The notes under the pieces: model-generated
Seen by the model: only the letters and a program-made list of their open reading frames with translations
Told to the model about the DNA's origin: nothing
The model's database searches: none
NCBI GenBank assembly: GCA_937958875.1
Contig: CALGMJ010000152.1
Coordinates: forward strand, 1-42,432
Length of the DNA stretch: 42,432 nt
Direction of reading: 5' to 3'
Source: an uncultured Verrucomicrobiales bacterium
GTDB lineage: Bacteria; Verrucomicrobiota; Verrucomicrobiia; Verrucomicrobiales; Akkermansiaceae
Position numbers and translations under genes: made by a program
Shown: in pieces, positions 25,792-31,979 of the stretch
Layout of the letters: every line of letters starts with the position of its first letter
Numbering within the stretch: position 1 is the stretch's first letter

Positions 25792-27186
25792 TTATTTTTG
25801 GGTGTGTGCATGGCGACGAACCAAATCACGAGCAGGCTCAGGGACCCAGCGTTCCCAGTCACCCGACTTCCGATATCCGCGTAAAATTTCGCGTCCTGTC
25901 TTTTTCAAAAGCTCCTCATCCCCAACTTCTAAGCCCCTGATGAGACCATTCTCAATGAAGTGTCGATAGAGGTGTTCTAAGTTTTCTGGGGCGCGGAAAG
26001 TTTCCGCGGTGACACATTCATTATCTTTCCGGTTTCGCCACGGATAAACGAGGAGTGAGATCCCAGATTTAAAGAGTCGCCCGAAGGATTCGAGGATTCC
26101 TCCACTGAGATTTTCAGACCACTTCTCTTTGAACAATTCATTAAGAAGCCCAATGGAGAGAATCATCCCGACCGGTTCACGCGTATAGAGGCGCAAGGTG
26201 GCGGCCACTCGGTGGAATTCGGGACAATTTGAAATCATAACCACTTTCCCTAGAGCCTGAAGCGTATCGACACGGTCAATGAAGGAAATGAGATCAATCT
26301 CACCGTCACGCAGGAGATTTGCGAGCGAGACCTCACAAACTTCTCGGCACGGTTTTGCTTTCTCGGATTGCTCATCACATGGAAAGACTTTTGAACCCTG
26401 CTCGAGCATATCGAGGTGTAAATTCGTCACCGGCATAAAGCTACCCCGGAGCACGAGTAGAGGAGTCCGGTAAAATGCTTCCGCTGCCTGAACGACTTCA
26501 CCATTCGGCATGAAGACAGTCGCTGGAGTGCAGCACTGTTTCACCAGCTCTAGAGCGCAGAGTCGATTATCAACCATCTCAAATCGCTCTCCGAGAAATT
26601 TCAGCATATCGATCTCAATTCTTCCTGGAGCAAGGTGTGCTGTGAGAGATTTTACGAAGGTTTCTAAATCTGTGGAGTGATGAAAGGCAGCCCAGATCAG
26701 GTTCACTCCCAAAATACCGAGAGCCTCCATTTGGTCGACATTTTCTTTATCGAGTAAGCGTGTATGTAGTAAGATCGTGCCAGAGCGTCCATTAGGTCGA
26801 GCTTGGTAACGGATGCCTAACCATCCGTGGCATTCTTCCTTATCTTGGTATCCTCGTGCTCGGACAGTGTTGCAGAAGGAGAAAAACCGTGATCGATCTC
26901 CCCTCTCTTCCATGAGTCGTTCGTGGAGGAGATCATACTCATAATTGAGCATTTGCACGACCCGATCTTGCGAGACATAGCGTTTTGATTTCCCATAAAC
27001 GGTGTCACTGATGGTCATATCATAAGCCGAGATCGACTTGGCCACCGTGCCAGCACTTGCTGAAGCTCGGAAGAAATGATTAGCGACTTCTTGACCTGCC
27101 CCGATCTCGGCAAAGGTCCCGTAAATTGAAGGATCAAGATTGAGCTGAAGTGCTTTATCTTGAACTGTGCGAATGGTCTCACTCAT
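25792..27186 (-). CDS. conserved protein of unknown function (464 aa), coupled to the PBP module
   Basis: A 464-residue soluble protein with no signal or membrane segment. It opens with a region containing YGTFAEIGAGQEVANHFFR (about 22-40), a stretch I recall from a widespread conserved family that is often mis-named as a nicotinate-nucleotide adenylyltransferase or TonB-dependent receptor. None of the adenylyltransferase HxGH-type motifs are present and no beta-barrel is likely. Its ATG is eight bases after the upstream zinc-ribbon gene's stop, so it belongs to the PBP operon. Function is unknown. Confidence 0.7.
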   Translation of the reverse strand: MSETIRTVQDKALQLNLDPSIYGTFAEIGAGQEVANHFFRASASAGTVAKSISAYDMTISDTVYGKSKRYVSQDRVVQMLNYEYDLLHERLMEERGDRSRFFSFCNTVRARGYQDKEECHGWLGIRYQARPNGRSGTILLHTRLLDKENVDQMEALGILGVNLIWAAFHHSTDLETFVKSLTAHLAPGRIEIDMLKFLGERFEMVDNRLCALELVKQCCTPATVFMPNGEVVQAAEAFYRTPLLVLRGSFMPVTNLHLDMLEQGSKVFPCDEQSEKAKPCREVCEVSLANLLRDGEIDLISFIDRVDTLQALGKVVMISNCPEFHRVAATLRLYTREPVGMILSIGLLNELFKEKWSENLSGGILESFGRLFKSGISLLVYPWRNRKDNECVTAETFRAPENLEHLYRHFIENGLIRGLEVGDEELLKKTGREILRGYRKSGDWERWVPEPARDLVRRHAHTQK

Positions 27187-27194
27187 TGACTGAA

Positions 27195-28391
27195 TTATTT
27201 AATACCTTTAACCCAACCATTAGTGACACGCTCTAAGATTTGGACCTGGCTTGAGCTGCGAGCGTTCTTAGGGTAAGCAATTTTGAGAATCACCGGGATC
27301 GAAGGCTTTCTTTTTAAATTCTCAAAGAGCTCAGAATCACGTTTTATATATCCCCAAAGGGCGCCTTCGTCGTCAGGGAAATTCAAACGATACGAAGCCC
27401 AAAATTTATCATCCGAGAAGTGATAGTTATAATAATCACGCTTCTGCATTTCTACACGAACTTCAACGGGTTCGGTTGGGCGTGATTCCATCAATTCCTG
27501 GATACTCTTTTCGCTATAACCAACCCAGCTTTGCCAATCGACGAAATAACCGTCTTCTGTCTTTTCCACTGCGACGGGTTTCGTTGAAAAATCTTTGAAG
27601 CGGACTGAGGTTGAGAGGAATGTTTCTCGGTAAGAAATGCTACCCTCCTCAAGCGAGCGAAACTTCCCGTAATTGAATTCCTTATTCGTATAATGTGCCC
27701 TCATGAGAGGTAACACTGTGTCTGCATTACGGACAAATTGAGCTCTCGTCTCAACATCTTCAGCGGAGAGGAAATTCGCAACCGCTTCACTGACTTTCGG
27801 GAGTTCAAAAGTGGCAAATTTAGCAATGAGTGCTGTCGCCTCATCATTGATCTCATTCTGCTGTTCATCGACAGTCAGGGCGAGACTTGATTCAACAGAG
27901 GCAAAGTCTACATCCTGATCGATAAGTATTGGCATGCGCCCGGCCTTGGGTGGAGGGGCCGTTTTTGTCCGGTAGGAATAGAATGCGAAACCAAGGGCAA
28001 TCAATGTCAAGGTGCTCACGATAGCCATCCATGGTATGGATTTTTCAGAAGACGTTTCCGTCTCCTCCCAGTCGAGCCGCTCAGCATTTCCACCAAAACG
28101 TCGTCGGCGATGAGTTTGGTCTTTCCAACTAGAATCCGCTTCATCGGATGCCTCTACAATCTCTGCTTTTTTCGCCACGATAGGCTGTCCCGCAGGAGTG
28201 GGTTTCGGCTGACTTGGATTCTTAGCGGAGTCAGATTGAGGGAGAAGAATGTTGGCAGAACAAGATGGGCATTTGCCGATCTGGCCAATCCGGTCCCCTG
28301 GGGCACGGAAAAGAGAAAAACAGCTCGGACACTGGTAAGGCGTCCAGCCACGTAATTTCGATTGCTGAGCTAATTCAGAAACAGAGGTCAT
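27195..28391 (-). CDS. zinc-ribbon and single-helix membrane protein of unknown function
   Basis: A 398-residue protein. An N-terminal zinc ribbon is visible as YQCPSC (about 19-24) and GKCPSC (about 39-44), a CxxC-x15-CxxC pair. A polar, acidic linker (to about 118) leads to one membrane helix (about 122-140), and the remaining 250 residues form an apparently extracytoplasmic region without recognised motifs. Its ATG overlaps the PBP stop (ATGA), so it is translationally coupled to the PBP. Topology suggests the zinc ribbon is cytoplasmic and the large domain periplasmic. Function unknown; position suggests a peptidoglycan-related role. Confidence 0.7.
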   Translation of the reverse strand: MTSVSELAQQSKLRGWTPYQCPSCFSLFRAPGDRIGQIGKCPSCSANILLPQSDSAKNPSQPKPTPAGQPIVAKKAEIVEASDEADSSWKDQTHRRRRFGGNAERLDWEETETSSEKSIPWMAIVSTLTLIALGFAFYSYRTKTAPPPKAGRMPILIDQDVDFASVESSLALTVDEQQNEINDEATALIAKFATFELPKVSEAVANFLSAEDVETRAQFVRNADTVLPLMRAHYTNKEFNYGKFRSLEEGSISYRETFLSTSVRFKDFSTKPVAVEKTEDGYFVDWQSWVGYSEKSIQELMESRPTEPVEVRVEMQKRDYYNYHFSDDKFWASYRLNFPDDEGALWGYIKRDSELFENLKRKPSIPVILKIAYPKNARSSSQVQILERVTNGWVKGIK

Positions 28392-30865
28392 TCGAGAGCT
28401 TTAGGGAGTTTGAAGCGTGGAGGGCGCGGGAGGCGTAAAAGTGCCTCTTTCTCGCCTTTTACCTGATCATCAATGGCTAAGGTGTCGTCATTCAGAACGA
28501 ATCCTCCTTCAGTGGTTGCATCTTCAGGAGCGAGACTCGGTTTTTCACTTTGATAAGGGTCTGCCCCAATGAGTAAGGGCGCTTTAGGTTTAATCGGAAC
28601 GACGGGAAGAGCTTTGCGCGGTGGTTTCGCCGTGATCAAGCCAGACAGATCAATGCCTGCCCCATGAATGGTGCAGATCCCGATCTTAGGTCCCTTACGG
28701 AAGTACTCCTTATAACTTGTAGATCTAAAGCTCACCTCTCCGGTCACCGGATCTTCTACCGAACGATTACAGTAGAGAGTGGGCTTCTGGCCAGAATGAC
28801 GACAACAAACGACTTCTTCAATCGTATTAGGACGGGGAATTTCTTGATCTGCGAACTGTGCTCGTGCGCTGTTAATCCCTGTCTGCCAGATGGGATAGGC
28901 TAGTTCTTTAGCGAATCCACCAGTCACAATCGGTTTGCGACTTCCTTGGTGGAAACCGACCCAAACTGCCCCTGTGATTCTACCAGTATAACCAGCAGTC
29001 CAAGCATCCGTGAAATTATAGGGAGTGCCAGATTTCGCTCCACCTTTAAATTCTCCCCCAGTTAACCCGGAAGAGACTTCGGAGAGATTCCCAGTCTTCA
29101 ACACATCATTCAACATGGTGTGAATCTGGTAAGCGGTCTCTGGCGAACAAGATTTGAGATATTTAGCCCCAACTTTTTGGGTAGCCTGGTAAACCACAGC
29201 CCCAGCGGAGTCCTTGATTTCCTGAATATACGAAATTTTTGCTAATCTCTCTCCACCATTAGCAAAAGAAGAGTAAGCCTTGACTACTTCTGGGACACTA
29301 GCTGGATTCCAGCCAACAAGGTTACGATTAAACAGTTTTTCCTCGGGGAAATTGAAGCCAAATTCTTTGGCGTTTTCCATGACTTGACTCAATCCAACAT
29401 CGATTCCGAGCCGAACCGAGGCGGCAATCTTGGAATCTATCAGAGCCTGACGTGCGGTAATATTCCGTTGAGAGTACTCTGGATTGGGGATCTCCATCCC
29501 CCACTCACCTACCACACCTTCAAGGCCGCCCACCATGAGGAGGCGGTTATTCATCTGTGCATCCATCACTGGAGTGGCTGGAGTTCTCCCCTTTTCTAGG
29601 GCGCTAGCGTGAACAATTGGGAAAAATCCAGTGCCGAGCGGACGGCGTCCTAGTTCAACAAAGTCATACTGCGAGTGAGCATAATTTCGCCCTCCCACAT
29701 GAGCGACGGCCTCCCCGGTCACGTGATCGACGAAAAGGGCCGCTCCCTGTAAATAAGTTGGCGCCTTTTTGCCTCGTTTGAAATCTTCATATTTCGCATG
29801 CGAGTACCCGGGAAGTAGTTCGATATCGTCAAGGTGTTCACTCAGTGCCTGCTCGAGGCGATTTTGGACATCTGAATCAATGGTAGTCTGGATTACAAAA
29901 CCACCTTCCGCCATGGCTTCCTCACCGATTGTCTCACGAGCGATTTTTTCAATCTTTTCGTAAAGATAGGAGCGGCCACGTAGAATGGGACGAGGATTCA
30001 CCGTGACTGGCAGAGCCAAGAGCCGATCTCGCTCCTCCAAGGAAATCATCTGCTCGAGAGCCATGCGCCGGATAACGTGATCACGACCGATTTTATTTCT
30101 CTCAGGGTGACGCAGAGGAGTAAACCGAGAAGGATTCTTCACACAAGCTACGATGGATGCACATTCGTGCAGCTCAAGATCACGGGGTTCTTTACCAAAA
30201 TATCCTAAAGAAGCGGCCCGGACTCCGTAGTATCCAGAACCAAAAGGCACTCGATTAATGTAGAACTCAAGAATCTGAGTCTTCATGGCCTTCTTTCGAC
30301 TGATCGGATCAGGATACTTATCCTCAAAATCAATTGCCATTTGCTCTTCGAGACGTAAGGCCAAAAATGCCTCCACCATTTTTCGCTCGTAACCACTTTG
30401 CTCCTCACGCCGAGCCACTCCCAATAAGTCAAAGGCATTTCGTACGAGTTGCATCGTGATTGTGCCTGCACCTTGAGTGACCCCACGGCTCTTCACATTA
30501 AGATACACGGCGCGGGCTACCCCAACCCAGTCGACCCCGTCATGCTCAAAAAATCGCTGATCTTCCTGCGCTAAAAGGGCATCAACAAAGAGTTGAGGCA
30601 CTTCCCCGATAGGGATTTTATCGCGATTCTCAGAAAACATCCGGCCAATCTCCTGACCATTACGATCGAAAATGAGGTTCGGCTCCTTAACGCGGTCAAT
30701 CAATGCTAGATCATAAGCATTTGCTTGATCTCGATACGGTTGCAGCTTCTTGTCCACGATAAACCCCGCCAATGCCACGAGAACGAGGCTGAAAATGACG
30801 AAAATCCTAAAGCCCTTTCGCTTGTAAAAGCGGGGCTTTTCCTTCCTTTTCTTTCGACCAAACAT
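28388..30865 (-). CDS. class A PBP-like glycosyltransferase with degenerate transpeptidase
   Basis: An 825-residue protein: cytoplasmic basic tail, membrane helix at about 20-37, GT51 domain (about 60-270) and a penicillin-binding-like domain (about 370-670). The GT51 motifs look intact: EDQRFFEH with E101, GAGTITMQLVRN, RKMVEAFLALRLEEQ with E165, and YGVRAASLGYFGK. In the transpeptidase domain the usual SxxK is TGFF at 412-415, within the aligned stretch RRPLGTGFFPIVH, and the SxN position is SKI (478-480). KSGT at 611-614 is kept. Such a protein should polymerise glycan strands but is unlikely to cross-link or bind penicillin covalently. It is coupled to the zinc-ribbon gene. Confidence 0.88.
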   Translation of the reverse strand: MFGRKKRKEKPRFYKRKGFRIFVIFSLVLVALAGFIVDKKLQPYRDQANAYDLALIDRVKEPNLIFDRNGQEIGRMFSENRDKIPIGEVPQLFVDALLAQEDQRFFEHDGVDWVGVARAVYLNVKSRGVTQGAGTITMQLVRNAFDLLGVARREEQSGYERKMVEAFLALRLEEQMAIDFEDKYPDPISRKKAMKTQILEFYINRVPFGSGYYGVRAASLGYFGKEPRDLELHECASIVACVKNPSRFTPLRHPERNKIGRDHVIRRMALEQMISLEERDRLLALPVTVNPRPILRGRSYLYEKIEKIARETIGEEAMAEGGFVIQTTIDSDVQNRLEQALSEHLDDIELLPGYSHAKYEDFKRGKKAPTYLQGAALFVDHVTGEAVAHVGGRNYAHSQYDFVELGRRPLGTGFFPIVHASALEKGRTPATPVMDAQMNNRLLMVGGLEGVVGEWGMEIPNPEYSQRNITARQALIDSKIAASVRLGIDVGLSQVMENAKEFGFNFPEEKLFNRNLVGWNPASVPEVVKAYSSFANGGERLAKISYIQEIKDSAGAVVYQATQKVGAKYLKSCSPETAYQIHTMLNDVLKTGNLSEVSSGLTGGEFKGGAKSGTPYNFTDAWTAGYTGRITGAVWVGFHQGSRKPIVTGGFAKELAYPIWQTGINSARAQFADQEIPRPNTIEEVVCCRHSGQKPTLYCNRSVEDPVTGEVSFRSTSYKEYFRKGPKIGICTIHGAGIDLSGLITAKPPRKALPVVPIKPKAPLLIGADPYQSEKPSLAPEDATTEGGFVLNDDTLAIDDQVKGEKEALLRLPRPPRFKLPKALE

Positions 30866-31979
30866 GAGTTCACTACCGACCCCCGATCTAGGTGGCCTTC
30901 AACAGGCATTTCCTTACCCCCGATTTAACGACGGGGCAATCACCGTCTTTTCTCAAGAGCTGTGTCATGAAATGGAAATATCGGGGCCAATGAGTTTTCA
31001 GCAATTCATGGCCCGCTGTCTCTATGATCCTAAGCACGGGTATTATGCTCGCCCAGACACCGCTACCGTCTCAAAAAAAGGCGATTTCATGACAAGCGTC
31101 TCCGTGGGGGCATGCTTTGGAACCCTTCTAGGTAAGCGTCTCCGAACTTTTCATAAAAAAAATGGCAGTCCTGACGATTTCACGATTGTCGAGATTGGTG
31201 CGCATGATGGTTCCTTATGTCAGGATATCAGAAGAGAATTCCCAGAAGCGAATTACACCATCGTGGAACCACTTGCTGAACGGCGGAAATTTCTACGCGA
31301 AAAGCTTGGGCCAGAGGTAATCATCTTAGAGCAGGCTGAAAAGGTCTCGATCTATGGTGCGTTGATTGCGAATGAAGTGCTCGATGCCTTACCGGTGCCT
31401 CTCTTGCTGTTCAGTTCAGGAGCTTGGCATGAAGTGGGTGTTACGGCTAATCTTGAGTGGACAACTCTTCCCGAGCTTCGCCCTGAACTCAAAGCTTTCA
31501 CTGAAGAACTTGGTAACGCATTTCCAGAAGGTTACGTGACTGAGCCCCCTCCAAAGCTTGCAGAATTTTTCGCTCCGCTAGATCGGCTTTTCGATCACGG
31601 GCTCATGACTTTTGTCGATTACGGACTCGATGCCGAAAATCTCTACTCCACGAGCCGCACGGTAGGGACCCTTCGTTGCTATCATCGACATCAGACAAAG
31701 GTTCATCCTTTAGATCGCCTAGGGCAGCAAGATATCACTGCCGATGTAAACTTTACTGCCGTGGAGAAAGCAGCCTCGGATATAGGATATCTCCCCTGCC
31801 CGATTATGAGTCAGAGCCGATATCTTACCCACTGCGCGAAGGAATGGCTTCTCTCCGAGAATCCTCCAAGCCCTAAGCTTTTACGAGAATTTCAAACCCT
31901 GATCCACCCCAGTCAGTTTGGCTCCCGTTTCTATATCCTGGAGCTACTGAAGGGAGAGGTGGAGCAAGCGTTTCCTTAA
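30864..31979 (+). CDS. MidA/NDUFAF7-like SAM-dependent methyltransferase
   Basis: A 371-residue methyltransferase of the DUF185/MidA class. The N-terminal motif MSFQQFMARCLYDPKHGYYA (about 43-62) and the GDFMTSVSVG segment are typical. The SAM-binding VEIGAHDGSL motif lies near 110-119, followed by the IANEVLDALPV motif (about 168-178) that resembles the conserved NEVxDAxP segment of the family. Mitochondrial relatives methylate an arginine in complex I assembly; the bacterial substrate is not known. The ATG shares two bases with the divergent PBP start codon. It is convergent with the Gfo/Idh gene. Confidence 0.88.
   Translation: MSSLPTPDLGGLQQAFPYPRFNDGAITVFSQELCHEMEISGPMSFQQFMARCLYDPKHGYYARPDTATVSKKGDFMTSVSVGACFGTLLGKRLRTFHKKNGSPDDFTIVEIGAHDGSLCQDIRREFPEANYTIVEPLAERRKFLREKLGPEVIILEQAEKVSIYGALIANEVLDALPVPLLLFSSGAWHEVGVTANLEWTTLPELRPELKAFTEELGNAFPEGYVTEPPPKLAEFFAPLDRLFDHGLMTFVDYGLDAENLYSTSRTVGTLRCYHRHQTKVHPLDRLGQQDITADVNFTAVEKAASDIGYLPCPIMSQSRYLTHCAKEWLLSENPPSPKLLREFQTLIHPSQFGSRFYILELLKGEVEQAFP

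Follow-up and report, generated by a model that had tools for sequence, protein, structure and literature searches.

A class A penicillin-binding protein (PBP) homologue encoded on the reverse strand of the window (the whole 42,432-nucleotide stretch of Verrucomicrobiales DNA analyzed here) appears to be a conserved glycan polymerase whose pseudo-transpeptidase module is retained for a structural or regulatory role, while other enzymes carry out the crosslinking; from sequence comparisons, we put the probability of this reading at roughly 0.7. By definition, class A PBPs both polymerize and crosslink, and a clade that keeps such a protein with a retired crosslinking site would represent a natural separation-of-function experiment. 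It raises the questions of what purpose the transpeptidase-fold (TP) domain serves without crosslinking, and which enzymes crosslink its glycan.

The gene occupies 28388..30865 (reverse strand, as are all of its features below), and re-reading of the open reading frame bore out the intact 825-codon frame described in an earlier note on this DNA, which is open throughout and without an internal stop. The domain order of the product is TM-GT51-linker-TP. The N-terminal transmembrane helix (residues 19-37; 30755..30811) was located by a hydropathy scan and corresponds to helix 17-50 of the predicted structure; class A PBPs typically have a single membrane anchor. The GT51 glycosyltransferase domain (residues 70-268; 30062..30658) matches PF00912 with an E-value of 3.3e-50, and the GT51 Glu residues that the note had reported as present, the catalytic E101 at 30563-30565 and the second one, E165, at 30371-30373, are invariant in 70 relatives together with D102, T137, Q139 and K162. 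The TP domain (residues ~372-660; 28886..29752) was assigned from PF00905 (E = 8.6e-9), predicted fold and structural match, and is catalytically degenerate; the Pfam match, at residues 375-636, is weak (35.4 bits) and lies above the cut-off of 22.1. With the GT51 catalytic Glu, the C-terminal PF00905 fold and the N-terminal membrane anchor all present, the protein belongs, in terms of descent, to the class A PBPs. Three C-terminal cysteines (C688, C699 and C731) are also conserved in the alignment of relatives.

The TP active site departs from that of a functional bifunctional class A PBP at two of its three motifs. In phmmer alignments with solved PBP1a structures, TGFF (residues 412-415; 29621..29632) stands opposite SSFK, STIK or SSIK, and SKI (residues 478-480; 29426..29434) opposite SRN or SKN, and an alignment of 117 sequences gave the same placement of both; the third motif, KTG, is retained as KSGT (residues 611-614; 29024..29035). 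All three assignments agree with those of the earlier note. Since TGFF and SKI occupy the aligned SxxK and SxN positions, the Ser nucleophile (now Thr), the Lys base (now Phe) and the Asn of SxN (now Ile) are gone. The proposed loss of nucleophile and general base is thereby upheld, the lost base being the Lys of SxxK, while the claim that SxN was lost holds for its Asn and not for its Ser, which is still there. A different alignment exposing a proper SxxK had been named as grounds for rejecting this interpretation; the only SxxK strings in the 825-aa protein, SRKK at 189, SHAK at 355 and SGQK at 691, all fall outside the TP active site. We infer from these substitutions that TP catalysis and covalent beta-lactam binding are absent in this protein, although the site could still support some chemistry or bind a ligand, because KTG is retained nearly everywhere in the clade described below.

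A tree of homologues built with the motif columns removed placed the protein among 93 sequences of the class Verrucomicrobiae that form a paralogue clade (83% SH-aLRT), apart from the clade of intact copies. The catalytic Ser column of this clade holds Thr in 92 sequences and Ser in one, and the Lys column is more varied (F 29, L 29, T 22, K 9, I 2, Q 1, V 1). The window's own family comprises 52 sequences (support 100), in which the first position is always Thr, the Lys position always Phe, Leu or Ile, and the SxN position SKI in 51 and SKV in one, so that Lys and Asn are absent from all 52. The conservation of TGFF/SKI in relatives, a check proposed in the note, is thus answered in favor of fixation. 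The nearest relative, at 77% identity, reads TAFF/SKI/KTGT, and complete single-contig genomes are among the independent genomes with the same substitution state.

The 93-member clade is nevertheless not uniformly dead, because it contains eight TxxK members and one member with a complete motif set. The eight (L137, L139, L140, L142, L145, L065, L079 and L083, out of 92 Thr-bearing sequences) all come from other families and have SxN in seven cases; judging from their motifs, they may be PBPs with a Thr nucleophile or may represent a stage on the way to loss. The exception, L077 (G050:C27:19413-21482), carries the full SAFK/SKN/KTGT set with a TCC codon for Ser inside an otherwise Thr-bearing clade, and its motif set could be ancestral or could have arisen by reversion. 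Across the tree, exchange of the Lys for a hydrophobic residue coincided with loss of the SxN Asn in three to four of five independent contrasts, with none in the opposite direction (sign test, p = 0.125-0.25); this correlated loss is only suggestive, because the test falls short of significance with too few contrasts. Two extra and very divergent class A PBP copies on long branches were also observed, L092 (G036:C6; SSFL/SKN/KSGT) and L093 (G038:C1; TAFL/GKT/WGGT).

A class A PBP homologue was matched in all 58 near relatives searched, and the gene itself is present in 25 of 27 genomes of the genus, with one copy split over two contigs; the two genomes without it are assemblies of 81% and 85% completeness. 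In the class-wide sample, 47 of 141 genomes were matched at E ≤ 1e-80. Three of these (G111, G137 and G176) had a sole match at E-values of 1e-94 to 1e-83, and the copies read, those of G111 and G137, are intact.

Measures of constraint and the predicted structure point to a TP-fold domain that is maintained. With pairs of saturated dS left out, dN/dS in close pairs was 0.03-0.11 for the TP domain, similar to the 0.00-0.10 of the GT domain, and mean conservation of TP columns was 0.605 in the window's family versus 0.613 in intact paralogues. The AlphaFold2 model, computed with 70 relatives, has a mean pLDDT of 88, with most GT and TP blocks above 90, and T412 opens helix 411-424, the place that the catalytic Ser occupies in active PBPs. 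A structural search matched the model to solved class A PBPs over its full length (Z 42-47). Together with the fixation of the substitution across the clade, the low TP dN/dS and the confident fold prediction sustain the view, first advanced in the note, that this protein is specialized and not decaying.

The 2.94-Mb metagenome assembly from which the window derives was searched family by family for other wall-synthesis genes. It holds three GT51 genes, encoding the 825-aa protein, a 742-aa class A PBP (G000:C32) with intact SIFK/SRN/KTGT, and a 541-aa protein; the second, active-type class A PBP that the note suggested looking for is therefore present in the same genome. Two class B PBPs with SxxK, SxN and KTG intact were also found, as were one complete SEDS gene, one SEDS fragment and eight YkuD (L,D-transpeptidase-type) genes. 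Alternative crosslinkers are thus available, given the intact class A PBP, the class B PBPs and the YkuD genes. The 541-aa GT51 protein (L086, G000:C52:15451-16287 region) has kept its GT domain, but its TP domain is reduced to a relic that lacks SxN and KTG. Further members of this third gene type are L087, L096, L099 and L104, and in G032, G034 and G027 it and the gene for the intact class A PBP are arranged head to tail.

These results are best explained by a class A PBP paralogue passed on vertically in the class Verrucomicrobiae, in which the TP domain has become a pseudoenzyme and GT51 remains fully constrained. The GT51 module would most likely act at the membrane, making glycan strands from lipid II, and the TP-fold domain may serve as a structural or regulatory element through docking or allosteric coupling, possibly binding stem peptides non-covalently via the retained KTG strand. 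One or more of the cell's other enzymes (the intact class A PBP, the class B PBPs, the L,D-transpeptidases) would then crosslink the strands.

Other explanations were weighed as well. A pure scaffold or regulator, with both enzymatic halves silent and the protein organizing or inhibiting other synthases, would agree with the certainly non-canonical TP half, and the syntenic membrane partner described below as well as C688, C699 and C731 would suit a component of a complex. We regard this as unlikely, however, since none of the GT51 motif residues has been lost, E101, K162 and E165 do not vary among 70 sequences, and the GT dN/dS is as low as given above; such constraint is expected of an active enzyme. 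Alternatively, Thr might replace Ser as the nucleophile in an enzyme that is altered but alive, as the presence of Thr in 92 of 93 sequences and the retained KTG could suggest; an active TxxK stage is conceivable in the other families that hold the eight T..K members, seven of them with SxN. For the window's protein this is very improbable: the SxN Asn has been lost in the protein and its whole family, and replacement of the Lys by Phe, Leu or Ile leaves the Thr hydroxyl without an activating base.

Two further explanations fare worse. Recent decay of a class A PBP into a pseudogene could account for the lost catalytic residues, particularly in a genome that already has another intact class A PBP. 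Yet the reading frame is uninterrupted here and in nearly all relatives, the substitutions are fixed across genera and families, TP dN/dS is low, and the gene is missing only from two incomplete assemblies of the genus; we consider decay of this copy barely plausible, and conservation and dN/dS rule it out at the level of the family. A sequencing, assembly or alignment artefact, which a source assembly only 77% complete might invite, has a negligible probability, as the loss recurs in the nearest relative and in independent genomes, some of them complete and single-contig, and the same motif state there rules it out. A conserved glycan polymerase with a pseudo-transpeptidase module remains the reading that we favor.

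The genomic neighborhood of the gene is also conserved. Directly downstream, 27195..28391 (reverse strand) encodes a 398-aa membrane protein that carries a zinc ribbon at its N-terminus (conserved cysteines C20, C23, C40 and C43, A2 numbering), followed by a conserved transmembrane helix at ~119-137 and a conserved C-terminal domain; in the window its ATG overlaps the stop codon of the PBP homologue by four bases (ATGA, 28388-28391). A homologue is the next gene after the PBP homologue in all 24 loci of the genus that were read and also lies downstream in three further family members, and a more diverged one is detectable downstream in nine loci of genus g3. This position makes the zinc-ribbon protein a candidate partner of the PBP homologue. 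A structural search with its model (mean pLDDT 71) returned no match below E = 0.001, the best being 0.0088, and we have therefore left its fold unnamed. The third gene of the syntenic block, at 25792..27186 (reverse strand), encodes a 464-aa protein that had no match in Pfam or NCBIfam but shows high conservation across the family, with the copy of the nearest relative 84% identical; in another part of g3, its homologue directly follows the PBP homologue. Upstream, a divergent SAM-dependent methyltransferase (PF02636, Methyltransf_28; 30864..31979, forward strand) is a conserved neighbor by synteny, although probably functionally unrelated to the PBP homologue. The start codons of these two opposing genes overlap in CATG (30863-30866), as they do in relatives, and one of the two annotated starts may lie further downstream.

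A bolder version of the favored reading would incorporate this neighborhood. The protein could be an ancient class A glycan polymerase of the Verrucomicrobiae that is by nature insensitive to beta-lactams, with its pseudo-transpeptidase pocket repacked as a peptide-sensing or partner-docking module, the zinc-ribbon protein as a dedicated partner, and its strands delivered to L,D-transpeptidases. We offer this combination tentatively, as a minority possibility; if true, Akkermansia and its relatives would build part of their wall outside penicillin-sensitive crosslinking.

The Akkermansia case illustrates the extent of the substitution. A complete genome of one contig and 2,664,102 bases (G148), which we strongly infer to be the A. 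muciniphila type strain ATCC BAA-835, carries a copy of the gene (2584479-2586785) that reads TAIL/SKI/KTGT. The preservation of the same loss in relatives that include A. muciniphila argues for a lasting specialization and not a broken gene. One of the three GT51 genes in this genome has an intact TP motif set (GSLFKPF, SRN and KTGT), among three transpeptidase-family matches in all, and nine YkuD genes were detected. A. muciniphila is a human gut bacterium, and the finding bears on the beta-lactam response of a gut organism of wide interest. Akkermansia was scored as a classic case in an earlier survey on the basis of aPBP gene presence (PMC8406291); gene presence alone masks that only one of its three GT51 genes shows an intact TP motif set.

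Our search of the open-access literature brought up no earlier account of a class A PBP whose TP is dead by nature, which is not proof of absence. In the V. spinosum essential-genome paper, the cell-division table has class B PBPs (COG0768), and a text search found no mention of a class A PBP. Among known systems, bifunctional class A PBPs such as E. coli PBP1a and PBP1b or A. baumannii PBP1a (3udf) share with the 825-aa protein the TM-GT51-linker-TP order, the fold, and the GT and KTG motifs; the difference is the replacement of the SxxK Ser and Lys and of the SxN Asn, and the protein scores 343.5 bits against the TIGR02074 (PBP_1a_fam) cut-off of 508.75. The intact paralogue of the same genome (G000:C32), in the sister clade on the tree, has the same architecture at ~34-35% identity, in its case with SIFK, SRN and KTGT. 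If its GT domain alone is active, the 825-aa protein would work like the monofunctional GT51 enzymes MtgA and SgtB; in contrast to these, which have no TP domain, it retains a whole and constrained TP-fold domain, and its TIGR02070 score of 80.7 bits is below the cut-off of 182.65. E. coli PBP1b S510A, in which TP is inactivated, still polymerizes glycan and suffices for crosslinking by the L,D-transpeptidase YcbB (PMC5089857), and resembles the 825-aa protein in having the nucleophile removed and GT intact. However, S510A is a laboratory mutant, whereas the loss in the 825-aa protein is natural, old, and includes the Lys and Asn.
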